Shown here piece by piece: positions 2,721 to 61,639 of a DNA stretch of 64,000 nt. The translations under genes were made by a program, and so were the position numbers. Source of the stretch: Nitrospira sp. (lineage in GTDB: Bacteria > Nitrospirota > Nitrospiria > Nitrospirales > UBA8639); NCBI GenBank assembly GCA_011523385.1, contig WTGX01000025.1, forward strand, positions 62,001 to 126,000, given 5' to 3'. Under the pieces are notes generated by a model. It made no database searches, was not told the origin of the DNA, and was given only the letters and a program-made list of their open reading frames with translations. Positions within the stretch are counted from its first letter, which is position 1. The number at the start of each line of letters is the position of its first letter.

Positions 2721-3485
2721 TCAGGCCGCTACACTCAAGGCTCTTACATGTTCAGATTTTTTCGTCAGACGTTTCATCCTTTGGAATAAGCGGTACTCTT
2801 CCGGTCTGACATATCGCCAGGACTGTGGAACAACAAAATCCGGGAATCGATTTCCTAGAGTGTTCAGGCTTACAGGGTTTTTATATTCCCAAACAAAAAA
2901 TTCCTTGGTAGTTTTCTCAACGCTGAAGGCATCCTCCAGGTCTTTGAGCGTTGGTTGGCCCTCGTCGTCCAACAGAAGCGGCAGAAGGCGACTCTGGGCG
3001 GTGTGGCTGGTTTCGTTTTTGCCCACTAAAAAGGAGTAGCGGCGGGCGGGGGTAAATTCTTCTTCAACCTTCCCTTTTTCATTGAATGTGTATTCCATTT
3101 TGATGAAAGAGAATCGCCAGTCTTCGCCGTCCGGTGGGACGAACGCCACCAGCGCCGCGTTTTTGAACATGCCGCCGCGACTGCCCTTCAAGTATTTGGA
3201 AACGAAATTTCTCTGCTTGGTCCTGGCGCGTTCCAGCGAGGTTTCTTTTTGCAGATGGATGACGAGAATATCCACTAACTTCTCGTCAGGCCCCTTATAC
3301 TTGCCTATGCGCTCGACCAGCTTGATGGAGTCTTGAAAATCAGAAAAGATGTACTGGCCTTTGTAAGTGAAAGGCGCTTCCTCAACGTGATTGAGTATGT
3401 TTTTGATCAAAGAGACAAAGCGTTCCTTGCTAAAGGAACTTTGGAGCGTTTCGCGCACCAGTCTTTGAGCGGCGACTTTGTCCAT
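2721..3485 (-). CDS. Truncated Eco57I-type restriction-modification protein (N-terminal part only)
   Basis: 254 aa. Residues 1 to about 197 follow the N-terminal domain of Eco57I-like type IIG restriction-methylases (normally about 1000 aa or more): a nuclease-type segment with KLVDILVIHLQKETSLERAR, then the RNFVSKYLKGSRGG, DGEDWRFSFIKMEY and FTPARRYSFLVGKNETSHTA blocks. After TTKEFF the sequence stops resembling the family and ends with about 57 unrelated residues. The methyltransferase, helical and specificity regions are all absent. It is therefore probably a deletion product: a fragment of a selfish RM gene, possibly inactive. The ATG at 3485 follows directly on the stop of a 23-codon frame ending EVILSEYLISE, the same peptide end found upstream of fic. 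The 220 bases downstream hold no supported gene. Confidence 0.7.
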   Translation of the reverse strand: MDKVAAQRLVRETLQSSFSKERFVSLIKNILNHVEEAPFTYKGQYIFSDFQDSIKLVERIGKYKGPDEKLVDILVIHLQKETSLERARTKQRNFVSKYLKGSRGGMFKNAALVAFVPPDGEDWRFSFIKMEYTFNEKGKVEEEFTPARRYSFLVGKNETSHTAQSRLLPLLLDDEGQPTLKDLEDAFSVEKTTKEFFVWEYKNPVSLNTLGNRFPDFVVPQSWRYVRPEEYRLFQRMKRLTKKSEHVRALSVAA

Positions 3486-3569: not shown

Positions 3570-4631
3570 TTAAGCGTTACTACCCTTATTCTTGCGGAAA
3601 CGCCACCGTGCCCCCGGCCCTCGGCCCCTACATGCCACGTCCCCGGATTTTTTCAACTCGGCCAAGAGGGTGCGAATCCATTCGCGGCCGACACCGGGAC
3701 AGGCGCGCTCCAAGTCGCTCAGGCGAAATTCGTCCGGTTGTGCACGAATGGCATCGAGCACCCGCTCGGATTTGGTACCCCGCGGGGCCTTGATCTGGCC
3801 GGCGCGTTCTTCCAACTCGACGTACGCTCGGCGGATGATCCCGAGCATAAAATTGAGCCAAGGCGTCGGTTCGTGTTTGCCATCGTGCCAGCGTGAGGAG
3901 CTGAGCCGGAGGCATTCGTAGTAGTCCTCCCGAGAATCCTCAATGAGGCGTTCCAAGCTGATGTAGCGACCAACCTCGTAGCCGTGCTGATAGAGTGCCA
4001 GCAGAGTGAGGAGCCGGGACACGCGACCGTTGCCGTCCCGGAATGGATGAATGCAGAGGAAATCCAAGATGAGCGCGGCGAGGGCGATGAGCGGCGGGAT
4101 ATTCTCCTCGTTGAGGGCGTGCCGGTACTGCCGACAGAGTTCTTCTACCGCCACCGGAGTCTTCTCGGCCTTCACGCAGTGAAACCGGACAACCGGAGCT
4201 TGCCCGGGCAGGTATTCCACGATGTCGTTATCGACTCGTTTGAATTGTCCCGCGTCGCCGCTGGTGGATTGGCAAAGGGCATGCAGGCGTTGCAAGGTGT
4301 CCGGCATGATGGAAAGTTCGGCGTGATTGGAGTGAATCTCGTTCAAGGCGCGGCGATAGTCCTGAACCTCCTGCTCTGAGCGGTCCCGGGGTTTCGATTG
4401 ACCGAGCACCAGTGGGTACAGGCGAGCCGGGGCGACCGTCACACCCTCAATGCGGTTGGAGGACTCGGCGCTCTGAATGATGGCTGTATCGCGGAGTGCT
4501 TTGAGTGCTTGGGGTGACTGCCGCGTGAACAATGCCTGTTTTCCCTTCGCCTCGGCGATATCGTTGAGCAGCCACACCGTGCTCATGGGTATGGCATGGT
4601 TGTGTAGGCGGTTGTTGCGGAACGAATTCAT
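3570..4631 (-). CDS. Fic family protein (AMPylation enzyme, class II)
   Basis: 353 aa. The Fic core motif HPFRDGNGRVSR (consensus HPFx[D/E]GNGRxxR) is intact, so transfer of AMP from ATP to a target hydroxyl is expected. An N-terminal inhibitory helix motif SNRIEG (S-x-x-x-E-G) marks it as a class II, self-inhibited Fic protein. The N-terminal part is a Fic/DOC_N-type domain. The C-terminal about 70 residues look like a winged helix (SERVLDAIRAQPDEFRLSDL..), common in chromosomal Fic proteins that act as regulators or toxins. The ATG at 4631 overlaps the stop of an upstream frame (ATGA), implying coupled translation. A reading through tRNA-Leu would give a longer protein but is rejected. Its target is unknown. 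Confidence 0.9.
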   Translation of the reverse strand: MNSFRNNRLHNHAIPMSTVWLLNDIAEAKGKQALFTRQSPQALKALRDTAIIQSAESSNRIEGVTVAPARLYPLVLGQSKPRDRSEQEVQDYRRALNEIHSNHAELSIMPDTLQRLHALCQSTSGDAGQFKRVDNDIVEYLPGQAPVVRFHCVKAEKTPVAVEELCRQYRHALNEENIPPLIALAALILDFLCIHPFRDGNGRVSRLLTLLALYQHGYEVGRYISLERLIEDSREDYYECLRLSSSRWHDGKHEPTPWLNFMLGIIRRAYVELEERAGQIKAPRGTKSERVLDAIRAQPDEFRLSDLERACPGVGREWIRTLLAELKKSGDVACRGRGPGARWRFRKNKGSNA

Positions 4632-14972: not shown

Positions 14973-16859
14973 ATGGCAGAACAAATTGAAACATTATTGA
15001 AAACGTCGACCGTATATCACCCGACGCAAAAAACCCTTGAGCAAGCTCATATCAAAGACTACGAATCCGCCTATAAGGAGTCCATCGCCGATCCCGAAAA
15101 GTTTTGGGACGGTGTGGCCAAGGATCTGGAATGGTTCGCTCCGTGGAACACGGTGCTGGAGTGGAATTATCCCTGGGCAAAATGGTTTTTGGGAGGACGT
15201 TGCAATATTTCTTATAACTGTTTGGATCGTCACGTGAATTCATGGCGACGGAACAAGGTCGCGGTCATCTGGGTGGGCGAGCACAACGAAGAACGGATCT
15301 TCACCTATGCCGAGTTGCACCGCCAGGTCAACCGCTGCGCCAATGCCCTCAAAACCCTCGGGATGAATAAAGGTGATCGCGTCACGATTTATCTTCCGAA
15401 AATTCCGGAACAAATCGTGGCCATGCTGGCCTGTGCGCGCCTCGGCCTGATTCATTCCGTGGTCTATTCGGGCTTCAGCGCGCCCGCGCTGGAATCCCGC
15501 ATCAATGATGCGGAAGCCCGGCTCGTTATCACCGCGGACTATGGATATGATCGCGGCAAACACGTGCCGCTCAAAACGGTGGTGGATGACGCGATTACAA
15601 ACTGTTCCACCATAGAAAAGACGATCGTGGTGCGACGGGAAAAACCGGGCATCGACCTGGACGCCGGCAAAGAACTCGATTGGGATGACTGGCTCGACGG
15701 CCAGTCAACGACCTGTGACGCGGAACAGCTTGACGCCGAAACCCCGCTCTATTTTCTCTACACTTCGGGCACCACGGGCAAACCCAAAGGCGTGGTCCAC
15801 GTCCACGGCGGATATATGGTGGGAACGTATATCACCGCAAAATACGTGTTCGACCTGAAAGACGAAGACGTGTATTTTTGCGTGGCCGACCCGGGCTGGG
15901 TCACGGGTCACAGTTACATCGTGTACGGCCCACTCCTGAATGGCGCGACTATTCTGACGGCTGAAGGCAAACCCGACTACCCCAACCCTGGCCGATGGTG
16001 GGATCTCATCGAAAAACACGGCGTATCGATTTTCTATACCACCCCAACGGCCATCCGTCTCCTCATGAAATACGGTGAAGACTGGCCCGGGAAATATGAT
16101 CTCTCGACCCTGCGCGTCCTGGGGTCGGTCGGCGAACCCATCAACCCCGAAGCCTGGGAATGGTTTCATCGCGTGACCGGCGGAGACAAACCGATTATGG
16201 ATACCTGGTGGCAAACGGAAACCGGAGCGATTCTGGTGACGCCTCTCCCCTGTGTCCCCCTGAAACCGGGGTCGGCCACTCGCCCCTTCTTGGGAATCGA
16301 GGCGGACGTTGTGGATAAGAGCGGCAAGAGTATCGGAACCGGCGGAGGGTTCGCAGTCATAAAAAAACCGTGGCCTTCCATGATGCGGACCATCCACAAG
16401 GACCCCGACCGGTACTTGGGTTACTGGAACAACATTCCGGGCTGTTACACCGCAGGCGACGTGTGCCATAAAGATGAAGACGGTTATTTCTGGTTTATGG
16501 GGCGGGCCGATGACGTGGTCAAAGTCGCAGGCAATCGTATCGGGACCGCTGAAGTAGAAAGCGCGCTGGTCAGTCACGACGCGGTAGTGGAAGCGGCGGT
16601 CATCGGCAAACCGCATAAAACCGCAGGAGAGATGATCAAAGCCTTCGTTATCCTGAAACAGGGTCAAAGCGAAAGCGCGGAACTACTCACAACGCTCAAA
16701 TCCCACGTCCAAACGGAATTGGGCAAAATCGCGGTTCCTCGAGAAATAGAAGTGGTAACCTCGCTTCCCAAGACCCGGTCCGGCAAAATCATGCGTCGTG
16801 TCTTGAAAGCCAAGGAACTCGGGCAGGATCCCGGAGATATTTCAACGTTGGAAGAATGA
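14973..16859 (+). CDS. acsA: AMP-forming acetyl-CoA synthetase
   Basis: 628 aa from the ATG at 14973, which has GAGGATC upstream. It activates acetate with ATP and CoA to acetyl-CoA. The adenylate-forming motif YTSGTTGKPKG, then DPGWVTGHSYIVYGPL, WWQTETGAI, the hinge GRADDVVKVAGNRIG and the C-terminal SGKIMRR with the catalytic, acetylatable Lys are all present. N-terminal WFLGGRCNISYNCLDRH binds CoA. The protein is slightly shorter than many Acs (about 650 aa). It may allow acetate assimilation; no acetyltransferase or deacetylase regulator is adjacent. Confidence 0.96.
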   Translation: MAEQIETLLKTSTVYHPTQKTLEQAHIKDYESAYKESIADPEKFWDGVAKDLEWFAPWNTVLEWNYPWAKWFLGGRCNISYNCLDRHVNSWRRNKVAVIWVGEHNEERIFTYAELHRQVNRCANALKTLGMNKGDRVTIYLPKIPEQIVAMLACARLGLIHSVVYSGFSAPALESRINDAEARLVITADYGYDRGKHVPLKTVVDDAITNCSTIEKTIVVRREKPGIDLDAGKELDWDDWLDGQSTTCDAEQLDAETPLYFLYTSGTTGKPKGVVHVHGGYMVGTYITAKYVFDLKDEDVYFCVADPGWVTGHSYIVYGPLLNGATILTAEGKPDYPNPGRWWDLIEKHGVSIFYTTPTAIRLLMKYGEDWPGKYDLSTLRVLGSVGEPINPEAWEWFHRVTGGDKPIMDTWWQTETGAILVTPLPCVPLKPGSATRPFLGIEADVVDKSGKSIGTGGGFAVIKKPWPSMMRTIHKDPDRYLGYWNNIPGCYTAGDVCHKDEDGYFWFMGRADDVVKVAGNRIGTAEVESALVSHDAVVEAAVIGKPHKTAGEMIKAFVILKQGQSESAELLTTLKSHVQTELGKIAVPREIEVVTSLPKTRSGKIMRRVLKAKELGQDPGDISTLEE

Positions 16860-51990: not shown

Positions 51991-52833
51991 ATGGCACGCA
52001 TCGATCTTCACCTGCACACCCGCTACTCCGACGGCAGCCTGATGCCCGGGGAGGTCGTAGACCTGGCCCGTCAAGCAGGCGTCACGGCCCTGGCCATCAC
52101 GGATCACGACATCGTGGACGGCATTCCTCACGCCATGGAGGCCGCCACGCCGCTGGGCATCGAAATCATTCCCGGCGTCGAGTTGAGTTCCCGCCTGGAC
52201 GGACAAGAACTCCACGTCCTCGGCTATTTCTTCGACTGGCAGGATCCGGTCTTCCGGGATCACTTGGCTCAACAGCGTCTTTCCCGAAACGTCAGAATTC
52301 CCCGGACCATCGAACGGCTGAACGCCTTGGGGCTTGAACTGTCCGAGGACGAAGTCAGGGCCAAGGCCGGCTGCGGTTCCATCGGTCGCCCGCACGTCGC
52401 GCAGGTGTTGGTTGACAAGGGATACGTTCAGGATACCCGGGAAGCCTTCGAGCGATACTTGAAAGAAGGGGCCCCGGCCTATGTGCCGCGGGCGCTCTCC
52501 GACACACGGGACGTCATCGCCTGGCTTCGCAATGCGGGCGGCGTTCCGGTTCTGGCACACCCGACGTGGACCCTGTGTCGAGGAAAGCCCCTGTACCGCT
52601 TGTGTGCCTGCCTAAAGGAAGCCGGGTTGTTGGGCCTGGAAGTATTCTACAGCACCCATACGCGGACGCAAACGTCCCGGTATCTTGAAATGGCCAAACG
52701 ATTGGGCCTGCTGATGACCGGCGGCAGCGATTTCCACGGAGCGACAAACCCGGGCATTCAAGTGGGCCGAGGCAAGGGAAATCTCAAAGTACCGGACACG
52801 CTATTGGACCCCCTCCGACGCGCCGCCCGATAG
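51991..52833 (+). CDS. PHP-domain phosphoesterase (TrpH/RNase AM-like)
   Basis: 280 aa. The PHP motifs are complete: DLHLHTRYSDG (motif 1), TDHD (motif 2), ELS-HVLGYFFDW region with HVLGY (motif 3) and VLAHPTW and GSDFHG (motif 4), which bind a trinuclear metal centre. Proteins of this type (TrpH, YciV) hydrolyse nucleotide 3',5'-bisphosphates or trim RNA 5' ends. It ends 15 bases before the left edge of the accessory island. The ATG at 51991 is followed by the expected start (ARIDLHLH). Confidence 0.9.
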   Translation: MARIDLHLHTRYSDGSLMPGEVVDLARQAGVTALAITDHDIVDGIPHAMEAATPLGIEIIPGVELSSRLDGQELHVLGYFFDWQDPVFRDHLAQQRLSRNVRIPRTIERLNALGLELSEDEVRAKAGCGSIGRPHVAQVLVDKGYVQDTREAFERYLKEGAPAYVPRALSDTRDVIAWLRNAGGVPVLAHPTWTLCRGKPLYRLCACLKEAGLLGLEVFYSTHTRTQTSRYLEMAKRLGLLMTGGSDFHGATNPGIQVGRGKGNLKVPDTLLDPLRRAAR

Positions 52834-52847
52834 GGGTCCGGACACCT

Positions 52848-52908
52848 GCTAATTTTCCGGGGCCTCGACGATGTGGTTTTCGAAGCGGGTACACCCTTCG
52901 GTCAGCAA
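52848..52908. repeat. Left 61-bp direct repeat (displaced 3' gene end, island border)
   Basis: 56 of 61 bases match 57686-57746. Read on the minus strand it encodes LLTEGCTRFENHIVEAPEN with a stop, the same C-terminus as the gene at 57687. It is taken as the original gene end, displaced by insertion of the island. Confidence 0.85.
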
Positions 52909-53009
52909 GCTGTCAACGGGGCGTCATAAATAATTTCGGAACCTCTGATTTATTGCCCTATCGGGCGCATGGTTGCGTTGTGTCCTCGTTCAACCTTCAC
53001 TTTCCGCCA

Positions 53010-53169
53010 TGCTGGGCTGGATGCCTCCGCATTCAAGTCACTTCGGAAGGTACGAGAAATCACTCGCCACTGGATCACAGCATACAATGAGGACCACCCT
53101 CATAACAGCTTGGGAAGCATACCTCCTGCCATGTTCAGACGGCATGTCGAAAAAACCAGAAATTCTATT
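53010..53169 (+). pseudogene. IS3-family transposase C-terminal remnant
   Basis: A stretch reading SLRKVREITRHWITAYNE then DHPHNSLGSIPPAMFRRHVE is the C-terminal end of an IS3-type DDE integrase (pattern W-x3-YNxxRPHxSLGxxPP). Only this end remains; the catalytic DDE part and inverted repeats were not found. The left end is not clear. Confidence 0.7.
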
Positions 53170-53243
53170 TTAGAATTGTCTCATTGGCAGGAAAACTTAC
53201 ACTTAAATTTCAGGAAACTTGTGAAAATCTGTGTAGTGACGGA

Positions 53244-54179
53244 TCAAAATATTACAGCCCGGTGGATCGGATGAGTCGAATCGAACGTACTCTCGAACAC
53301 CTTCAGCAATTCCCTTGTGAAGTGATGCCCTTTGTTCTTGATCGCTCGAAAGGTTCGATCATCTCGATTCCCAATCTCCAACTTCTCCAAGTGTTTTCTG
53401 GTTTCAAGGTCTTCCAGTTTTTCTAGAAAAAAGTTATAGCTGGTTAGAACCGGCTCCATTGCAGCTTTACCGCATATCTTTATCATTCGTTCCATCACGG
53501 GACGGTCGAACAAGCCCTCCAGTATCTCGATCTTTTCGTCCCGTGCACGATCAGCCGTCATGGCAATGCTGAACAGGCCACTCGCGTAGAGAAGCTTCCG
53601 AGAGAAAACAAGCTTGATGTTCCGGATTGCCCACGGCTTCGGTTCACCGCTTCCGGAGGTCTTGAACTCGTAATCGACCGCTACGGTACGGTAGTACCTG
53701 ATGATGTCATTGAGCAGAAACAGCGCCAACTGATGATCCGTCATGCCTTCTCCAATATAGCGCTCAAGTATCTCTCGTCGGAAACTTCGCAGTCCTTCTT
53801 TGTTGAACAGCCACTCCCCTTCAAGGAGCAACAATATTCGCCGCGTGATGTTCTTGTTGCTGTCGTCGTCTCCTCCGATGTTGGCAAGAATTTCGCTTCG
53901 ATTGACTGTCGCACCAAAGGCACCACCTTCCGATGGACTATTGGGAACAATGCTGCGGATTTCGGAACGAACGCGCTCGTTCAGGTCAGGGGCCGTTTCT
54001 GTATCGTCGGACACCATGACGTAGTCGATATCCGATTGCTCTGACGCCTCACCCCGTGCATATGATCCACAACAAACCAGTAAGGCCGCGTTGTCAAGCG
54101 ATAACTCTTTGAGTCGATCTCTGATTTTAGAAAGCTGGCACTTGGAATATTCCAAACTGTGTTCATACGGCGTCGTCAT
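53244..54179 (-). CDS. Nucleotidyltransferase (MNT-like) paired with an HD protein
   Basis: 311 aa. The N-terminal nucleotidyltransferase core is clear: CGSYARGEASEQSDIDYVMV (GS-x10-D-x-D), which would bind two metals, followed by NRSEILANIGGDDD and NITRRILLLLEGEWLFNKE. The C-terminal half is helical with FLLNDIIRYYRT and a second helical block. The ATG at 54179 lies 17 bases inside the upstream HD gene, so the two are coupled in translation. It may transfer a nucleotide to RNA, protein or another nucleotide. HEPN toxin domains are not obvious. An antiphage or toxin-antitoxin function is inferred from the location. Confidence 0.8.
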   Translation of the reverse strand: MTTPYEHSLEYSKCQLSKIRDRLKELSLDNAALLVCCGSYARGEASEQSDIDYVMVSDDTETAPDLNERVRSEIRSIVPNSPSEGGAFGATVNRSEILANIGGDDDSNKNITRRILLLLEGEWLFNKEGLRSFRREILERYIGEGMTDHQLALFLLNDIIRYYRTVAVDYEFKTSGSGEPKPWAIRNIKLVFSRKLLYASGLFSIAMTADRARDEKIEILEGLFDRPVMERMIKICGKAAMEPVLTSYNFFLEKLEDLETRKHLEKLEIGNRDDRTFRAIKNKGHHFTRELLKVFESTFDSTHPIHRAVIF

Positions 54180-55257
54180 AGAACAAAACTCCCTGCGAAC
54201 CGGTCACAGCTTTAACCGCCGAATCGATCTTCATCTTCAACGTCAAAATATGTTTGCTACGACTGTGTCGATAACGAACATCGTCTTGTCGAGAAAAAAA
54301 ATCTCCTTCTCGGTCGATATAATAGTTGCGAAATACGTAGCAGACAGGTTCGTCGACCATGCGAATGACTTCGGCTTTGAACGAACGGCTCGTGAGCAAT
54401 TCTCTTAATCCCGGCAGTTGTTGAAACAGCTTGGTTTCGGTGCCGAAAAAAGACGTGCATTTAATTCGATCAAGATTCTTCCGAAGAAATGTCTTGCATG
54501 CAAAATCAGAAAGAACAGAATCTTCGGAATTTATAATCTCTTTATAGACCCAATCTTTACATTTCCAAAACGCATCTACGATATTCTTGTCTTTCTCGTT
54601 TTCTCGTTTTATTGCTGCATCCGTCACAATGTCCGGACTGGAGGCGCTGGGAGTTCTTCGTATGTATCTGTAGGAACGGAGGATACCTTCAATCGTGTCA
54701 AAATTGATCGGACCATGAAAGAAACCATCGAAGCTCGTGACCTCTCCGGAAACAACAGCAACCAATTCTTCAACATCTACACCATAGCGCCGAAGAATCG
54801 AAAAGACGTTCTTGCCGAGAGGCTTCCGACCGCAAATGATGTCCTTCGACGCAGTATGATGATCTATTCCGAATTTCTCTCTGAAAACGGATTCCACGGA
54901 ATGCGACAGCGGGGGATGGCCGATATCGTGCAGGAGGGCAGCTGCACACAGCAAGCGGCGCTCAGATCGCCGTATGTGGCGCCTGAGGCAGTACAGACGT
55001 GCCAACTGCATGACCCCGAGACTGTGCTCGTAGCGAGAGTAGCGGATTGCGCCGAGTTTGCCGTTTGGCCGAGGGATTAGGCAATAGTCGATGGCTCCGA
55101 GAAAACGAATATCCTTCAGACGCTGGAAGGCCTGAGTGTCGATAAGTTCCATCAGCAACGGATCTTTATCGGTTGCTGCAAGGAGGTCGGTCGGCTCACG
55201 GAAGCCATGTATCACCGATGGCGTTGATATGTCGAGTTGCGCTGACAAAACGGTCAT
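54163..55257 (-). CDS. HD-domain phosphohydrolase (SAMHD1-like), island gene
   Basis: 364 aa from the ATG at 55257; the frame runs upstream without a start that has good context. The HD set is intact: RLKDIRFLGAIDYCLI, RYSRYEHSLGVMQLARLYCL (first His), AALLHDIGHPPLSHSVESVF (His-Asp) and INFDTIEGILRSYRYI (last Asp). This is the dGTPase/SAMHD1 fold that removes triphosphate from dNTPs, or degrades other nucleotides. It is followed by, and overlaps, the nucleotidyltransferase gene. Compared with the HD gene at 42464 it has a different C-terminal part. Together the pair could make and remove a nucleotide product, or deplete nucleotides in infected cells. Confidence 0.82.
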   Translation of the reverse strand: MTVLSAQLDISTPSVIHGFREPTDLLAATDKDPLLMELIDTQAFQRLKDIRFLGAIDYCLIPRPNGKLGAIRYSRYEHSLGVMQLARLYCLRRHIRRSERRLLCAAALLHDIGHPPLSHSVESVFREKFGIDHHTASKDIICGRKPLGKNVFSILRRYGVDVEELVAVVSGEVTSFDGFFHGPINFDTIEGILRSYRYIRRTPSASSPDIVTDAAIKRENEKDKNIVDAFWKCKDWVYKEIINSEDSVLSDFACKTFLRKNLDRIKCTSFFGTETKLFQQLPGLRELLTSRSFKAEVIRMVDEPVCYVFRNYYIDREGDFFSRQDDVRYRHSRSKHILTLKMKIDSAVKAVTGSQGVLFYDDAV

Positions 55258-55347
55258 CACCAAGAATATCGTTGTCTGTCGCGAACCCGTGGTGCCACCA
55301 TATCTGACATCCAATGATGACTGTGTGAGAGGCTCATGACTATCTTG

Positions 55348-55370
55348 GAGTATTCCGATTCCGAATACTC
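55348..55370. promoter_or_regulatory. Inverted repeat upstream of the HD-nucleotidyltransferase pair
   Basis: GAGTATTC (55348-55355) and GAATACTC (55363-55370), a perfect 8-bp inverted repeat with a 7-base spacer, about 90 bases before the HD start codon. It may be an operator. Confidence 0.45.
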
Positions 55371-55860
55371 GCGGCCAAAATCCAGAGTACAAGGGCGAAA
55401 TCAAACTGGGCGACAAGGTTTCGTAGCTACGGCATAGGGCTTCGGATACGATACAGTCGAACTGACAGTCCTGAAGGACGAAGACTACAACGAGGTACTA
55501 TTCCAAACCGAGTGGCTTATGAAGATCTTTGGCCGCGTAGAGCCGCGTGGACCCCGATATCAAGGCAGAAAGGACCACCAACAACGATAGAGTTATAATA
55601 GTAGTGTCTATCATTTCCATGTGTCAAGCGAAACCACTCCGCGCTCCTCGACGACCACTAGCGTCTTGACTTGACGTCGCGCCCTGCTGCAGCCACCTCG
55701 ATAAGAACCAAGGGCGACTGAAAGACTGCACCCACTGCTAGGGCGCAGCCAAGCTTTCCGCGTCATGCGCCGCCGCACCCGTCACCCTGAAACCCACGCA
55801 GTTCAGTCCGGGGTGCCAAGGCACGACTCGGAGAACGGTGTGGTTGCTCGAAGGCCGCGA
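55371..55860. other. Decayed stretch without an intact gene
   Basis: No sizeable frame with coherent protein content. A short stretch (about 55440-55590, plus) reads DTVELTVLKDEDYN and FQTEWLMKIFGRV between stops and looks like a broken gene I cannot identify. Confidence 0.4.
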
Positions 55861-55864
55861 TTTT

Positions 55865-56338
55865 GTTATGGAGGGTGTTCCCCGTACCCCTCGAAGGAGC
55901 GAAAGACCTGTGGGAACGGGATAAGTATCACTTTCAAAATGGGCGTGGAGCAGGTGGACGGGTTTGTCACGACGCGTCGGTCCGGTGATGGCGGGATTGC
56001 CGGACGACTCTATTTTGTCGACGCATAAGCAGGAACTCCAAAGCATGGTGATCGAAGTGAAAGGCGGGAAACACGTCACCTTGAATCAAGTCATGGCCTT
56101 ACGGGGGTCTTAGAGCGTGAAGAGGCAGCCATGGCCGGATTGATCCTCATGGAGAAACCTGGCCTGACCCAGTTACGCAATTTTCGACGGGAGTTTTCCA
56201 AAGCCTGGAGCTTGGAAGTCCTAGGGGTCTCCTACCCTCGAATGCAAATGCTGACGGTTCGGGAAATCCTTATAGGCAAACACTTTCAGACCCCAACCGT
56301 GGCTGGCCGGAAGGCCGCGCAACCGGGGCTGTTTGGAT
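55865..56338 (+). pseudogene. Frameshifted C-terminus of a DNA methyltransferase (type III/Mod-like)
   Basis: Blocks characteristic of the C-terminal nuclease-like tail of site-specific adenine methyltransferases occur in order but in different frames: LEGAKDLWERDKYHFQ, then VEQVDGFVTTRRSGDGGIAGRLYF, then VIEVKGGKHVTLNQVMALRG, then VLEREEAAMAGLILMEKP and SYPRMQMLTVREILIGK. At least three shifts break the gene. The catalytic methyltransferase part is missing. It is a relic of an RM system in the island. Confidence 0.75.
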
Positions 56339-56355
56339 AGCATAGAAGAAACCCT

Positions 56356-56463
56356 ATGTCCGTGATGCAAGACATTAACTGGAAGCACGCCATTTTGTTC
56401 TGGCTTGCGGGTTTGGCTGTTGTTATCGTGCTTAGAGCCAGTTATGCAAAGGGGCGAACCTGA
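56356..56463 (+). CDS. Possible 35-aa single-span membrane peptide
   Basis: 35 codons, ATG to TGA: a charged start (MSVMQDINWKHA), one hydrophobic span (ILFWLAGLAVVIVL) and a basic end (RASYAKGRT). It overlaps the next gene by 20 bases. The ribosome site is weak. Toxin-like small membrane peptides have this shape, but this is only a possibility. Confidence 0.35.
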   Translation: MSVMQDINWKHAILFWLAGLAVVIVLRASYAKGRT

Positions 56464-56764
56464 AAACCCGCAAATCCTAGGAATGGAGTTTTCCTTAGAA
56501 CGCGGGAACAAGCAGTTTTGGGTGAGACGGATTGAGACCAAAGACCCAACACTCGAAATGACTCAGTACGGGCGGATTCTTCGCAAGCCCTATTACGTTT
56601 GCCAGACCTACCCTGAGGTCATGGCCAAAGACAAGAATGAGGAATCTGAGTTTTGGGGGCCACCGAGGTATCGAACGAAACAGGAAGCCGCCGAAAGGTG
56701 TATGGACCGATATTTCAGGGGCCTCGATCTTGAATTTGAGGGATCGACCTTAAATCCAACCTGA
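56444..56764 (+). CDS. Small unknown protein of the island
   Basis: 106 aa from the ATG at 56444 (ATG at 56483 also possible). A soluble, charged protein with a strand-rich middle (EFSLERGNKQFWVRRIET, ILRKPYYVCQTYPEVMAKD) and a C-terminal helix (RTKQEAAERCMDRYFRGL). No domain is recognised. It precedes another small gene by 7 bases, so the two are likely an operon. Confidence 0.45.
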   Translation: MQRGEPENPQILGMEFSLERGNKQFWVRRIETKDPTLEMTQYGRILRKPYYVCQTYPEVMAKDKNEESEFWGPPRYRTKQEAAERCMDRYFRGLDLEFEGSTLNPT

Positions 56765-56771
56765 AACACCT

Positions 56772-57101
56772 ATGCCAGACAAACGACCAGAGCAATTACC
56801 GCTCCTGCCAGAACATACACCCAACGATTTGCAGGAATGTTCGGGACCGCTTCTAGTTTACCGTGCCATTCTCTACGATCTGACCGGCTATTTACTGCAA
56901 CATGCCTCAGATAAAGAGCTGGTCGAACAGTATGGTAGAAACTGCGTGAAAGCTTTTGCCGACGATGGCACTGGCATTATGGCAAAGGGGGCAGTAGTTG
57001 CTCCAACATCGGACTGGCATAAGATCGCACAAGGCATTGAGAAGGCACGGCTAGATTTCCTTCGCATTCTCGATCACCTCAAGCAAGCCCATAACGTATA
57101 A
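56772..57101 (+). CDS. Small unknown helical protein of the island
   Basis: 109 aa, ATG 7 bases after the preceding stop. Opening MPDKRPEQLPLLPEHTP is extended, then helical: GPLLVYRAILYDLTGYLLQH, CVKAFADDGTGIMAKGAVV and IEKARLDFLRILDHLKQA. No motif is recognised. A partner of the previous gene, perhaps a toxin-antitoxin-like pair, is conceivable but unsupported. Confidence 0.45.
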   Translation: MPDKRPEQLPLLPEHTPNDLQECSGPLLVYRAILYDLTGYLLQHASDKELVEQYGRNCVKAFADDGTGIMAKGAVVAPTSDWHKIAQGIEKARLDFLRILDHLKQAHNV

Positions 57102-57207
57102 CTGCCATTATTTTTTTGGCGAACCGGGACAGACGGGGTCCAGTCACAGGATATACAAAACGCCGTGACAAGGCGACCCTCGCGTGAACATCCAAAATGC
57201 CAGGGGC

Positions 57208-57273
57208 ATGGCCAAACCATACCACGTCCGCCAGGTTCTGCGGGCGATAGCTCGTTTGGAGGCTGAATCATGA
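57208..57273 (+). CDS. 21-aa peptide coupled to hicB (possible HicA relic)
   Basis: ATG (57208) to TGA overlapping the hicB ATG: MAKPYHVRQVLRAIARLEAES. The AKPYHVRQVLRAI opening resembles the first helix of some HicA toxins, but the double-stranded-RNA-binding core with its His is absent. It may be the residue of a deleted toxin gene, or just a leader peptide. Confidence 0.35.
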   Translation: MAKPYHVRQVLRAIARLEAES

Positions 57274-57596
57274 GCAAAACATATGATCGTTACACGTACC
57301 GGGTCACGTGGTCCGAAGAAGATCGAGAGCACGTGGGTTTATGCGCTGAATTCCCCGGCCTGAGTTGGCTTGACCCGTCACCGGAGAAGGCGCTGACGGG
57401 TGTTCGCCGGATTGTCAGGGACTGCCTCAGAGATATGCGAAGAAACAAGGAGGACGTACCCGAACCGATTGCGCTGAAAAACTACAGTGGAAAGTTTATG
57501 GTACGAGTTCCGCCGGAAACGCACCGGATGCTCTCCGTTGAGGCGGCTGAGTCCGGGGTCAGCTTAAACCGGCTGGTAGCCGGCAAATTACGATGA
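57270..57596 (+). CDS. HicB-like antitoxin
   Basis: 108 aa. The N-terminal HicB fold has YTYRVTWSEEDREHVGLCAEF then PGLSWLDPSPEKAL and IVRDCLRDMRRNKEDVPEPI; the C-terminal part is a ribbon-helix-helix DNA-binding domain (SGKFMVRVPPETHRMLSVEA, VSLNRLVAGKL). HicB neutralises HicA RNase and represses its operon. No intact hicA lies next to it, only a 21-codon frame that overlaps its ATG, so it seems to be an orphan antitoxin or a regulator. Confidence 0.85.
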   Translation: MSKTYDRYTYRVTWSEEDREHVGLCAEFPGLSWLDPSPEKALTGVRRIVRDCLRDMRRNKEDVPEPIALKNYSGKFMVRVPPETHRMLSVEAAESGVSLNRLVAGKLR

Positions 57597-57685
57597 TGCG
57601 CCCCGAGGGACGTGGAAACACGCGAACCGGACCTGTATTGAAAATCACCCGAAGGATCTGCACAATGCAGCCGCCTGCCCGGCCC

Positions 57686-57746
57686 GCTAATTTTCCGGGG
57701 CTTCGACGATGTGGTTTTCGAAGCGGGTGCAACCTTCGGCCAACAA
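57686..57746. repeat. Right 61-bp direct repeat (current gene 3' end, island border)
   Basis: Matches 52848-52908 with five differences. It is the coding end (LLAEGCTRFENHIVEAPEN) of the unknown gene on the minus strand. Confidence 0.85.
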
Positions 57747-58700
57747 CCGGTTCGTCAGCATCTCACCCGGCCATTCGATGGGCAGGTCCGCGGTAAAGAC
57801 CCAGACGTCCGGCGAGGTCCAGATCGGGCCGTGATCTTCCGGCAGATCGGGATCGAACAGATCCGTCCAGACGGGCATGTAGACCCCGTTCCCGCATTGC
57901 GTGTGTAAATGGACGATAGCCCGACTCCTGACCGGAGGATCAAGGTCATGCCAGACCGCCGCCGTTTCATCGGCCAGTCGATGGAGCCTCACCGCGTTCT
58001 GCGCGTCGAACATGCCGTACGCGGCATACACCGGCACTTCCAACATATTCGGCGCCAAGGCAATTTCAGGGCATTGCGCCATCAGACCTTGAAGCAGAGT
58101 TTCCCGTTCTTTGTCGGGAATACTTTCCGGGAGGGACGAATCTCTTGCCCCGATCAATTCAAACAGCAAAAAGGCCGTTGACTCGACGGGCGGATGGAGA
58201 CGAGCGGTAATGGGTTGCCGGCGCTGGGAACCGGCCATGCAGGACAAATGTTCGTGAAGTTGCTGAAGGGTCAGGAAATCAAGCGTCGTATCGGTCAGCA
58301 ATCGCGGTTCGACCGTCACCACGGTTCCCGGGGGAACGTGTAAACACTCCCGGAGCAGTTCCGCAGTTTTTTCCGGATGAATTTTCAAGCCGAGAGGCGC
58401 GGTCAGATTCGCCTGCAGGGGCAACTCGATTGCGCCCAAAATGGCATAGGCCGGATCGTCGTCATGATCGCTCTCGATCGACACGGAACACGCGGCCTCC
58501 GCCAACAGGTCGAACAGCCATTCGGCCATTTCTTCATCCAACGCTGCCAGGACGGTGAGCACGTCATGCTCGCGGTCCTGTTCGAGCAACGCCTGCAGGA
58601 CTTCGATGGCGAGTTCGGAATCACCGTGATCGTGCCGGCGGGCATTGATCAGGTGAATCAGGTCTCGGGTTAGGGGGTCCGGGCGATACCAACTGGACAT
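57687..58700 (-). CDS. Conserved-type protein of unknown function, island target gene
   Basis: 337 aa, no signal peptide or membrane span. The first about 80 residues are helical with LIHLINARRHDHGDSELAIEVLQALLEQ and acidic EMAEWLFDLLAE. The middle is alpha/beta (LPLQANLTAPLGLKIHPEKTAELL, VPPGTVVTVEPRLLT). The C-terminal part has VYMPVWTDLFDPDLPEDHGP and ends ENHIVEAPEN. The last 20 codons are the repeat shared with the left border, so the gene end was replaced on integration yet kept intact. Its own role is unknown. Confidence 0.7.
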   Translation of the reverse strand: MSSWYRPDPLTRDLIHLINARRHDHGDSELAIEVLQALLEQDREHDVLTVLAALDEEMAEWLFDLLAEAACSVSIESDHDDDPAYAILGAIELPLQANLTAPLGLKIHPEKTAELLRECLHVPPGTVVTVEPRLLTDTTLDFLTLQQLHEHLSCMAGSQRRQPITARLHPPVESTAFLLFELIGARDSSLPESIPDKERETLLQGLMAQCPEIALAPNMLEVPVYAAYGMFDAQNAVRLHRLADETAAVWHDLDPPVRSRAIVHLHTQCGNGVYMPVWTDLFDPDLPEDHGPIWTSPDVWVFTADLPIEWPGEMLTNRLLAEGCTRFENHIVEAPEN

Positions 58701-59468: not shown

Positions 59469-60353
59469 ATGCCCACCATCTCGGAAGCGCATTCCTATTG
59501 CACGTTAAAGGCGAAAGACAGCGGGAGCAACTTTTACTACTCTTTTCTCTTCTTACCCCGTCCCCGCCGGGAAGCCATGTATACCGTGTACGCGCTGTGT
59601 CACGAGTTGGACGCGGACGTGGATCACCCCCCTGACGGAGTGGATCCATGCGACCGGCTCGCGGAGTGGCGCCGGGAAATCGAGGCGGCGTATCAAGGCA
59701 TCCCGCAATATCCGGTGACCATCAGTCTCGCGGATCACGCCCGCAGGCTGGGCATTCCCCGGGACTATTTTCACGAACTGATTGCCGGCATGGAAATGGA
59801 TCTGACGATCAGACGGTACGCCACCTTTGACGATCTCTATCCGTATTGCTATCGCGTGGCCTCGATCGTCGGATTGATCTGCTTGAAAGTGTTCGGGACC
59901 GTGGACCCCCGTGCGCAAGACTACGCCGTCAACCTGGGCGTGGCTTTTCAACTGACCAACATCATTCGTGACGTGGGAGCCGATGCCGAACGCGACCGGA
60001 TCTACGTGCCGCTGGAAGATCTGGCCACATTCGGCTGTTCCGAGGAACAACTGTTGACCAAAACTGCTTCACCCGAATTCATCCGGCTCATGGAATTCCA
60101 GGCCGCCCGGGCTCACGACTACTATCGAAAAGCCCAAACCGTGCATGACGCCCTTTCATCGACCGATCGACAATCCTTGCTCGTCGCGGAAATCATGCGC
60201 GACATTTATTTCAACCTGTTGACGCGTATTGAAAACACGCGATTCGCCGTGTTTGCGTCCCGCATTCGCGTCCCTCCTTTTCATCGTGCAACTCTGGCCC
60301 TGACCACGTGGATGCGGAGATCGTTCCAAAACCGGTTGTCCCGCCGGACGTAA
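59469..60353 (+). CDS. hpnD: Squalene/phytoene synthase family enzyme (HpnD-like)
   Basis: 294 aa. Isoprenyl synthase fold: SFLFLPRPRREAMYTVYALCHELDADVD carries the first Asp-rich motif, and LTNIIRDVGADAERDRIYVP the second (DxxxD). HpnD makes presqualene diphosphate from two farnesyl diphosphates on the route to hopanoids; HpnC and HpnE, the other steps, are not in the window. Plain phytoene or squalene synthase activity is not excluded, but DVG-D-ER-RIYVPLEDL fits HpnD best. Confidence 0.85.
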   Translation: MPTISEAHSYCTLKAKDSGSNFYYSFLFLPRPRREAMYTVYALCHELDADVDHPPDGVDPCDRLAEWRREIEAAYQGIPQYPVTISLADHARRLGIPRDYFHELIAGMEMDLTIRRYATFDDLYPYCYRVASIVGLICLKVFGTVDPRAQDYAVNLGVAFQLTNIIRDVGADAERDRIYVPLEDLATFGCSEEQLLTKTASPEFIRLMEFQAARAHDYYRKAQTVHDALSSTDRQSLLVAEIMRDIYFNLLTRIENTRFAVFASRIRVPPFHRATLALTTWMRRSFQNRLSRRT

Positions 60354-60400
60354 CGTATCACCGGTCGATGGATATGCAAAGAACCAACGCCACTTCAGTT

Positions 60401-60456
60401 CTGTCATTCCGAGCTTGTCCTGAGCGAAGCGAACGGGCGAAGTCGAAGGGAATGAC
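60401..60456. repeat. Dispersed REP-like repeat with GTCATTCC/GGAATGAC ends
   Basis: GTCATTCC at the left and GGGAATGAC at the right form an inverted repeat around TTGTCCTGAGC...GTCGAAGGG, fourth member of the dispersed family. It lies between hpnD and the uracil-DNA glycosylase gene. Confidence 0.75.
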
Positions 60457-60529
60457 TGAACACATACAAGGATGACAGGAGGGGAAGTCGGGATGGTAAA
60501 TGTTCAACAAGGTAGCATGAGAGATCATT

Positions 60530-61141
60530 ATGTCGCTCGCTGACCTCTGCGAATCCCTGCGCAACTGCCAGCAATGTCGTCTGGCTTCCGGACGGACCCA
60601 GGTGGTGTTCGGGAGCGGGAACCCGGAAGCCTCGATCATGTTCGTCGGAGAAGCCCCGGGGTTTCATGAAGACAAGCAAGGGGTGCCGTTTGTCGGCGCG
60701 GCGGGAAAACTCTTGACGGAATTACTGGAATCGGTCGGGCTGTCCAGGTCCCAGATTTACATTGCCAACGTCATCAAATGCCGCCCTCCCCAGAATCGCG
60801 ACCCCGCACCCGATGAAGTGGAGACCTGCAAACCCTTCCTGCTCCAGCAAATTCAACTGATCAAACCGCATCTGGTGTGTTCCATGGGCAACTTTGCCAC
60901 TCAAACGCTGCTCGAAAGAAAAGTGGGGATCACCAAGGTCCACGGGCAACCGTTTCAATTAAAGGAGTTTCGACTGTTTCCGCTGTTCCATCCCGCCGCG
61001 GCCCTGCACAACGAACGTCTCCGGCCTCAGCTTCAGGAAGACTTTCAAAAATTGAAACGGCTCCTGGACGCGATGGCGGTTCCCCGGCAGGAACCGGCGG
61101 TTCCTGCAAGCGCCCAACCCGAGCAAATGGATTTGTTTTAA
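60530..61141 (+). CDS. Uracil-DNA glycosylase, family 4 (Fe-S type)
   Basis: 203 aa. It removes uracil from DNA. Four Cys for a [4Fe-4S] cluster are visible: NCQQC at the N-terminus, then IKCRPPQNRDP and VETCKPF. Catalytic and uracil-binding blocks: FVGEAPGFHEDKQGVPFVGAAGKLL and LFPLFHPAAAL. The family is typical of thermophiles and many environmental bacteria without classical Ung. The C-terminal tail (AVPASAQPEQMDLF) ends in a QxxDLF peptide, like the beta-clamp binding motif QLxLF. Confidence 0.93.
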   Translation: MSLADLCESLRNCQQCRLASGRTQVVFGSGNPEASIMFVGEAPGFHEDKQGVPFVGAAGKLLTELLESVGLSRSQIYIANVIKCRPPQNRDPAPDEVETCKPFLLQQIQLIKPHLVCSMGNFATQTLLERKVGITKVHGQPFQLKEFRLFPLFHPAAALHNERLRPQLQEDFQKLKRLLDAMAVPRQEPAVPASAQPEQMDLF

Positions 61142-61149
61142 CCCGGCTT

Positions 61150-61175
61150 GTCGGATTACGCTCCGCTAATCCGAC
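61150..61175. repeat. Small palindrome at convergent gene ends
   Basis: GTCGGATT (61150-61157) and AATCCGAC (61168-61175) form an 8-bp perfect stem with a 10-base loop between the ends of the glycosylase gene and the minus-strand gene. Likely a bidirectional terminator. It provides the last codons (RRSD) of the minus-strand gene. Confidence 0.7.
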
Positions 61176-61639
61176 CTACGTGGGCTGTCCGAATCCTGGG
61201 TTTTCTCCTGACCCTCCGCTTCGGGTTCCTCGGATTCTTCGTCGGATCCTTCGAATTCTTCTTCAGGCGTTTCGAACCACTTCACCAGCATCTCTTCCCA
61301 CCATACTTCATCGACATCCGCGCCGGGATCGAATCCCAAGAACGACACATCGGCTTCGGTCATGTCAGGATTGATGTCCGTGGGACGATGCCGGGCGCGA
61401 TCGACCACTTCCTTGGTCGCGTACCCGCCGACGATCCAGGACGGCGGATCAGCGCGCCGGGATTTATACGCTTGGAGTTGATGTTTGAAATAGACAAAAA
61501 TATTCCGTTGCGCGGCATCTTCAAACCCGCTGGGCGGCAGGCTCAGGATTTTCTCGATTTTTTTTCGCCATTCCCGCTGGTCGTAGCGCGAGGTGACCAA
61601 CTGCAAGGCTCTTGCTCCGTCTTCAACGTCAAGTGGCAT
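61166..61639 (-). CDS. Unknown protein with acidic tail
   Basis: 157 aa. The core (residues 1 to about 115) has REWRKKIEKILSLPPSGFEDAAQRNIFVYF and WWEEMLVKWF with helical character. The last about 40 residues are strongly acidic (TPEEEFEGSDEESEEPEAEG) and disordered. It ends in a palindrome. It lies downstream of pmbA by 27 bases and so is likely co-transcribed with it. No family was recognised. Confidence 0.6.
   Translation of the reverse strand: MPLDVEDGARALQLVTSRYDQREWRKKIEKILSLPPSGFEDAAQRNIFVYFKHQLQAYKSRRADPPSWIVGGYATKEVVDRARHRPTDINPDMTEADVSFLGFDPGADVDEVWWEEMLVKWFETPEEEFEGSDEESEEPEAEGQEKTQDSDSPRRSD

Follow-up and report, generated by a model that had tools for sequence, protein, structure and literature searches.

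In the closest described systems, a 3′ gene end is either copied or pushed aside beside incoming DNA. Prophage e14 in icd of Escherichia coli is described as having duplicated a 165-bp 3′ segment of the gene, with 12 exchanges, on the far side of the insert, while the gene product is kept and a putative integrase gene, intE, is retained (PMC11148124). Homology-facilitated illegitimate recombination is described as displacing 3′ ends at type VI secretion system (T6SS) effector modules of Vibrio cholerae and is also proposed there for Rhs loci; the incoming module is anchored by homology on one side, and effectors are displaced together with immunity genes (PMC5361080). Hotspots without an integrase, at which recombination takes place in the flanking core genes, have been described as well (PMC5635113). 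Here we analyze a duplicated gene end in a 64,000-nucleotide (nt) stretch of Nitrospira sp. DNA (the window; GCA_011523385.1, contig WTGX01000025.1, positions 62,001–126,000). The stretch contains a gap of about 4.9 kb between a PHP-domain phosphoesterase gene and a conserved Nitrospirales gene of 337 residues, and a stranded copy of the last ~64 nt of the 337-residue gene lies at the far side of the gap, next to the PHP gene.

The locus shares with the integrase-less hotspots its two conserved flanks, variable cargo, a gap free of integrase matches and flanks that, in one relative, show recombination breaks. It differs from them in that the comparison is at genus level, among uncultured Nitrospirales, and in its single stranded gene end (PMC5635113). 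The likeness to the Vibrio modules would lie in an import anchored by homology on one side and an old 3′ end pushed aside; unlike there, what is displaced is a scrap of 64 nt, the end of the 337-residue protein is nearly unchanged and the anchor is a presumed step (PMC5361080). As with e14, a 3′ gene segment is duplicated on the far side of the insert and the gene product is kept, but the gap holds no integrase and its cargo is not a unit (PMC11148124). The locus looks like a scar that ordinary gene exchange has left at a much-used insertion site and not like a new kind of mobile element; a well-preserved scar in an integrase-less hotspot is a known kind of locus. In uncultured relatives of Nitrospira, the scar is a readable trace of the way in which one hotspot may take up accessory and candidate defence genes with no integrase involved. 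Relatives should be compared before a duplicated gene end beside an island is interpreted as an attachment site.

The duplicated gene end and its setting

The segments 52848–52908 and 57686–57746 are identical at 56 of 61 positions, just as the original prediction had reported, and a longer match covers 61 of 69 positions. In the register of the gene itself, which starts at 52849, 55 of 61 positions agree. No other 61-mer of the window matches the repeat at more than 32 positions (plus strand) or 31 (minus strand), and among 2000 shuffled versions of the 200-nt surroundings of the relic the top score was likewise 32 of 61. A search of the whole genome with the border returned two places (E values of 7e-35 and 1.9e-19) and no third copy.

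Read on the minus strand, both copies finish ..EGCTRFENHIVEAPEN-stop. The relic is in frame and ends ..LLTEGCTRFENHIVEAPEN-stop, compared with ..LLAEGCTRFENHIVEAPEN-stop in the gene, with 94.7% identity across residues 319–337. The prediction that both copies encode the same peptide end with a stop thus holds, as does its statement that the gene at 57687 ends in one copy while the other lies alone. The gene is intact and open over all 337 residues, and the left copy is solitary, its stop codon separated by 15 nt from that of the PHP gene. From the repeat comparisons and a matching relic in a relative, the stranded piece spans 52849–52912 on the minus strand, stop codon included.

The genome studied is designated G000 and was compared within a genus set of 14 genomes and a wider set of 59 (58 relatives and G000). 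The PHP gene (51991–52833, plus strand; Pfam PHP, 2.1e-13) forms the left flank of the hotspot. It also matches the NCBIfam model for 3′,5′-nucleoside bisphosphate phosphatase at 3.1e-62, under the curated cut-off, and is present in 11 of the 14 genus genomes, with no match in G001, G007 and G009. The right flank is the 337-residue gene (57687–58700, minus strand). It has matches in 51 of the 59 genomes (50 of the 58 relatives, plus G000) and in every genus genome except G012 (13 of 14), and its product belongs to no Pfam, NCBIfam or PADLOC family.

The two genes are convergent and are found on one contig in seven genus genomes. Two of these sites are empty, with stop-to-stop distances of 8 nt in G002 and 14 nt in G003. 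The other five are occupied by about 0.7–5 kb (G010, ~0.7 kb; G004, ~0.8 kb; G006, ~1.2 kb; G000, ~4.9 kb; G008, ~5.0 kb), and their cargo is partly common and partly different between genomes. The two genes are split over different contigs in G005, G011 and G013; in G012 the contig stops 329 nt past the PHP gene.

Because the left copy fills the place where the 337-residue gene ends in the empty sites, the simplest reading of these sequences is that the copy at 52849 is probably the original chromosomal 3′ end of the gene at 57687. The empty sites, together with the 15-nt distance of the solitary copy, agree with the earlier proposal that this gene once ended beside the PHP gene, and that part of the interpretation, a displaced end, is probably right.

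Distribution of the scar and of the gap content

G008 carries a relic at the matching place, 53 nt long and 90.6% identical to that genome's own gene end; beyond G000 and G008, no relic was found in the other relatives examined. The G008 relic is followed by the same joint segment, half of a miniature inverted-repeat transposable element (MITE), a transposase piece and then genes for a nucleotidyltransferase and an HD-domain protein. Beyond the HD gene, G008 has a different middle part, followed by two small open reading frames (ORFs) and a HicB gene. The blocks shared between the two genomes are 52859–53084 (226 nt, 90.3% identity), 53238–55637 (2400 nt, 95.6%) and 56431–57596 (1166 nt, 90.7%).

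A tree of the left-hand genes places G000 as sister to G008 and G013, although this block takes in recombined segments (G011) and the branching is approximate. The simplest account is a single origin of the scar before the split between G000 and the G008–G013 pair, followed by its loss in G013. Transfer of the scar between G000 and G008 is a possible alternative. No match to the island or the relic occurs in G013 within 5.0 kb after the PHP gene or 0.9 kb before the 337-residue gene; its PHP gene is followed by repeats and a transposase associated with repetitive extragenic palindromic (REP) sequences.

Two attempts to read more from the letters of the relic were given up. The G008 relic is nearest to the gene end of G000, from which it differs at 2 of 49 compared positions (one inserted G008 base was dropped before counting), yet the G000 relic is equally near to the gene ends of G000, G004 and the distant G010, with 5 of 49 differences each. 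A date at the genus root was rejected, since the letters do not settle the age. Purifying selection on the relic was considered as a sign of foreign origin; third-codon changes make up three of the five differences between relic and gene in G000, which are too few.

The HicB gene and the end of its partner ORF form a 495-bp stretch that has matches in 7 of the 14 genus genomes, once in each. All seven adjoin the PHP gene, the 337-residue gene or both, and G010 and G012 hold only parts of the stretch. No genome among the 14, which are mostly draft assemblies, contains two HicB copies. In G004, G005 and G006, HicB is accompanied by a complete partner ORF of 82 residues, which we take, from its position, to be HicA-like; these three copies match no Pfam or NCBIfam family, apart from one match at chance level (E 0.14).

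This module sits between the PHP gene and the 337-residue gene on both branches of the genus, in G004 on one and in G006 and G010 on the other. In G004 the end of HicB is 4 nt from the stop of the 337-residue gene. The relic is absent from all three gaps, each of which has both flanking genes on one contig, and it is also absent from the PHP arm of G005, the only arm seen to adjoin HicB in that genome. Close homologues of the nucleotidyltransferase gene within the genus are confined to G008, with 95.6% nucleotide identity, and G005. The G005 copy follows HicB on the PHP side, is split into two frames and is cut by transposase-bearing sequence. Because the HicB module occupies the gap without the repeat, and because the nucleotidyltransferase gene of G005 comes after HicB and is broken, the repeat does not delimit one element.

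Integrases were sought by a six-frame search of eight genomes with the families Phage_integrase and Resolvase. Phage_integrase matches occur in all eight, including three in G000 and four in G008, but in neither of these two does any fall inside the gap; the genome-wide search was confined to Phage_integrase and Resolvase. Resolvase matches are confined to G005 and G006, with none in G000 or G008. These results bear out the earlier remark that no integrase is visible.

Reuse of the border was surveyed in the best 80 of 178 related stretches, taken as loci with G000 excluded. The closest of these stretches come from the metagenome bins Nitrospira sp. SB0662_bin_26, SB0677_bin_15, RHO3_bin_20 and bin75, which are presumably sponge-associated Nitrospirota, and from Nitrospirales bacteria. 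A convergent PHP gene is present in 57 of the loci, and 49 of the gaps are at least 61 nt long and could be tested. A copy of the locus's own gene end was found in one of the 49, at 49 of 61 positions; it is the G008 contig (L062), and the next best gap reached 33. The 23 loci without a PHP gene in reach gave a best border match of 33 and no repeat. The search suggested by the original prediction, for another element with this border, thus yielded none among these loci apart from the G008 contig.

Recombination in the flanking genes and origin of the scar

G011 shows breaks in identity to either side of the gap. From moaA into the first half of folB-MT, G011 is 90–99% identical to G000, G008 and G013. 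Identity then falls to 66–90% through the second half of folB-MT and the PHP gene. On the other side, it is 86–91% in the last 254 nt of the 337-residue gene and afterwards returns to 89–99%. In the last 127 nt of this gene, G011 is nearest to G005 and G010 (92 and 93%). Maximum chi-square analysis placed breaks in folB-MT in four triplets, all at the floor of p 0.001. A second break, about 234–238 nt before the stop of the 337-residue gene, was placed in 4 of 10 triplets at a floor of p 0.0005, with G011 as a parent in all four. In G011, the whole gap was likely exchanged as one tract.

These observations point to an insertion hotspot into which content was imported by homology on the gene side, with an illegitimate joint in the last 64 nt of the gene that left this end stranded. 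We put the chance of this account at about even. The gap content would be exchanged between related species by homologous recombination in the flanking genes. The common ancestor of G000 and G008 would have received an import with the nucleotidyltransferase, the HD protein, the small ORFs, HicB and an end of the 337-residue gene. Homologous recombination would have joined the import on the side of the 337-residue gene, and an illegitimate joint would have formed on its other side, within the resident gene's final 64 nt. The 3′ part brought by the import would have kept the gene whole, and the resident's last 64 nt would have been left beside the PHP gene. On the side of the presumed illegitimate joint lies a joint segment (52914–52937), which a pattern search allowing up to three mismatches matched, among the 59 genomes, in G000 and G008 only. 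That the left copy was the original end, that the relic arose by the same kind of exchange as in G011 and that the second joint was illegitimate are steps that we infer. The anchor step in G000 and G008 is of the same nature, because an anchor tract was demonstrated in neither.

Several observations weigh against this account. In the 337-residue gene, the other 6 of 10 triplets gave p 0.11–0.88 and no donor tract was detected in G000, G008 or G013; the comparisons of G000 with G013/G004, of G000 with G008/G004 and of G008 with G000/G004 gave p 0.11, 0.14 and 0.88, respectively. In G011 itself the flanks lie on separate contigs, and the PHP gene diverges fast in all genomes compared. The HicB gene (57270–57596; 16521–16847 in the G008 locus L040) shows 86.2% identity in the pair G000–G008 and a higher 90.5% when G000 is set against the more distant G004 or G005, whereas the nucleotidyltransferase and HD genes are 95.6–96.0% identical between G000 and G008. 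The island was therefore not simply inherited as one block. Should HicB have been inherited vertically and lost several times, so that the recipient already had it, a simple import into an empty site would have put the stranded end on the other side of the module. Finally, the spacer that separates the stop codons of the PHP gene and the relic (52834–52848) is, at 15 nt, too short to prove orthology. Twelve flanks were tried; the best match was the gene flank of G013, a score reached by 3 of 1000 shuffles, and those of G002 and G003 were at shuffle level.

Two further candidates were rejected. Homology of the spacer to the empty sites of G002 and G003 was dropped on those shuffle-level scores. 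An apparent closeness of the G000 gene to G002 and G004 over its last 200 nt suggested a donor tract there, but the test was not significant.

A local duplication followed by deletion is a tentative alternative, to which we give perhaps half the credence of the account above. A tandem duplication would have copied a segment whose end was formed by the final 64 nt of the 337-residue gene, and later insertions (the MITE, the transposase and the nucleotidyltransferase–HD pair) and deletions would have removed the rest of the first copy. Duplication with subsequent unequal deletion could yield the differing gene orders, as the HicB module and gene-side spacer come before the nucleotidyltransferase in G005 and after it in G000, and the two differences among 49 positions between the G008 relic and the G000 gene end, with one inserted base dropped, also fit. 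This account, however, requires a duplication and in addition a deletion that halts 15 nt from an intact PHP gene, near the spacing of the empty sites, and the mostly draft assemblies of the genus set include no genome with two copies of HicB.

Site-specific integration is unlikely; the original prediction had read the island as an integration at the 3′ end of the gene, with the gene restored by the element's own copy, and had left the mechanism open. An element with an attP site matching the last ~64 nt of the 337-residue gene would have entered there, restored the gene with its own copy and later lost its integrase. A direct repeat at both borders, an intact reading frame, empty sites in relatives and integrases elsewhere in G000 and G008 all suit such an event, and the duplicated icd segment beside e14 provides a parallel (PMC11148124). 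An integrase attachment site was our first idea; it was downgraded when the HicB module, at the end of the would-be element, proved to occupy the same gap without any repeat in G004, G006 and G010, and the gap gave no integrase or resolvase match. With respect to the island genes occurring beside the PHP gene in the same order without any border, this gene-side HicB part is a partial instance, which counts against the original prediction. The cargo is in addition a patchwork, and none of the 49 testable gaps from the best 80 of 178 stretches showed an independent insertion with this border, the sole match being the G008 contig. Restoration of the gene by a single integrative element is accordingly not supported.

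It is very improbable that integrase-less cassettes of defence genes repeatedly enter this Nitrospirales gap through the 3′ end of the 337-residue gene by a dedicated, unrecognised mechanism that strands the gene end each time, with most scars later erased, as may be the case in G013. A target-site duplication made by one of the transposases is highly unlikely unless a new type of transposon is invoked, for although a transposase remnant and the MITE half adjoin the relic, the repeat of 61–69 nt is imperfect, is not at transposon ends and does not bracket the transposase piece, and target duplications of the transposon types present here are far shorter.

Features of the gap and its surroundings

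The content of the gap is a patchwork of a MITE half, a transposase tail, a candidate defence pair, a broken partner ORF and HicB. After the relic and the joint segment comes the 5′ half of the MITE (52938–53000, plus strand), recognized by matches elsewhere in G000. In this genome the MITE family gives 18 further matches with E values no higher than 2.1e-5. A complete copy of 142 bp (G000:C38:53063-53204, locus L159) has inverted ends of 18 nt and, by eye, a TACA target duplication. A C-terminal fragment of an IS3/IS481-type transposase follows at 53001–53243 on the plus strand, within the ORF 52969–53274 (Pfam rve_3, 3e-11); it matches the NCBIfam IS3 model at 3.8e-7, under the cut-off of that model.

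The nucleotidyltransferase gene (53244–54179, minus strand; Pfam NTP_transf_2, 5e-9) encodes a candidate defence protein, PDC-M70A, by its PADLOC match (2.7e-56). A literature search for PDC-M70 gave no paper carrying that name. The gene is overlapped by that of the HD-domain protein (54163–55416, minus strand; Pfam HD, 1.7e-11). The true start of the latter is probably further in than 55416, and the corresponding ORF of G008 has 365 residues. The HD protein has weak matches to dGTPase models; its close match in the genus is in G008 only, with weak matches elsewhere in all 14 genomes. The two ORFs are long, intact and overlapping and make up 46% of the stretch between the borders; the original prediction does not mention them. 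Judged by these family matches, the pair may form a candidate two-gene phage defence system.

A degenerate stretch at 55638–56430, delimited by the ends of the alignment blocks, is largely missing from G008, with one 24-nt match inside. Its place in G008 is taken by a DUF805 gene and by a tail, recognized by eye, that resembles a transposase. Two small ORFs of 119 and 109 residues (56405–57101, plus strand) have homologous DNA within the genus in G008 only and match no family above its cut-off. They are followed on the same strand by the truncated ORF of the HicB partner (57102–57272), which lacks its start and contains an in-frame stop, and by the HicB-family antitoxin gene (Pfam HicB, 3.1e-14), which is resident at the locus in several relatives. 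The spacer from HicB to the gene end (57597–57686) is homologous to G006 as far as 57668. Searches against PHROGs returned HicB-like, transposase and function-unknown families, and a phage membrane-protein family for the DUF805 protein of G008. The transposase, methyltransferase and toxin-type relics listed earlier are thus present in part: the transposase fragment and the HicB antitoxin are confirmed, and the supposed methyltransferase relic (ORF 56131–56340) has no Pfam or PHROGs match.

Other features lie outside the gap or in relatives. At about 60200–61141, which covers the gene 60530–61141 and the end of a gene that we take to be squalene-synthase-like, G000 is mostly closer to the distant G003, G005, G006 and G010 (up to 92% identity), and its identity to G008, G011 and G013 is 78–89%. 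This segment of G000 is a probable imported tract, as judged from identity values.

Several relatives have a short palindromic repeat of REP-like type at the border of the gap. It is found at 61147–61179 in the window, at ~3254–3286 in locus L060, and at ~4341–4373 and ~5013–5043 in L057. In G013, the REP-associated transposase, a tyrosine transposase, lies between two REP-like copies directly beside the PHP gene. In G011, a very long gene of Calx-beta repeats (3556–7941 in L058) comes after the PHP gene, and similar repeats occur on the contig with the 337-residue gene; the gap of this genome may hold a giant gene.

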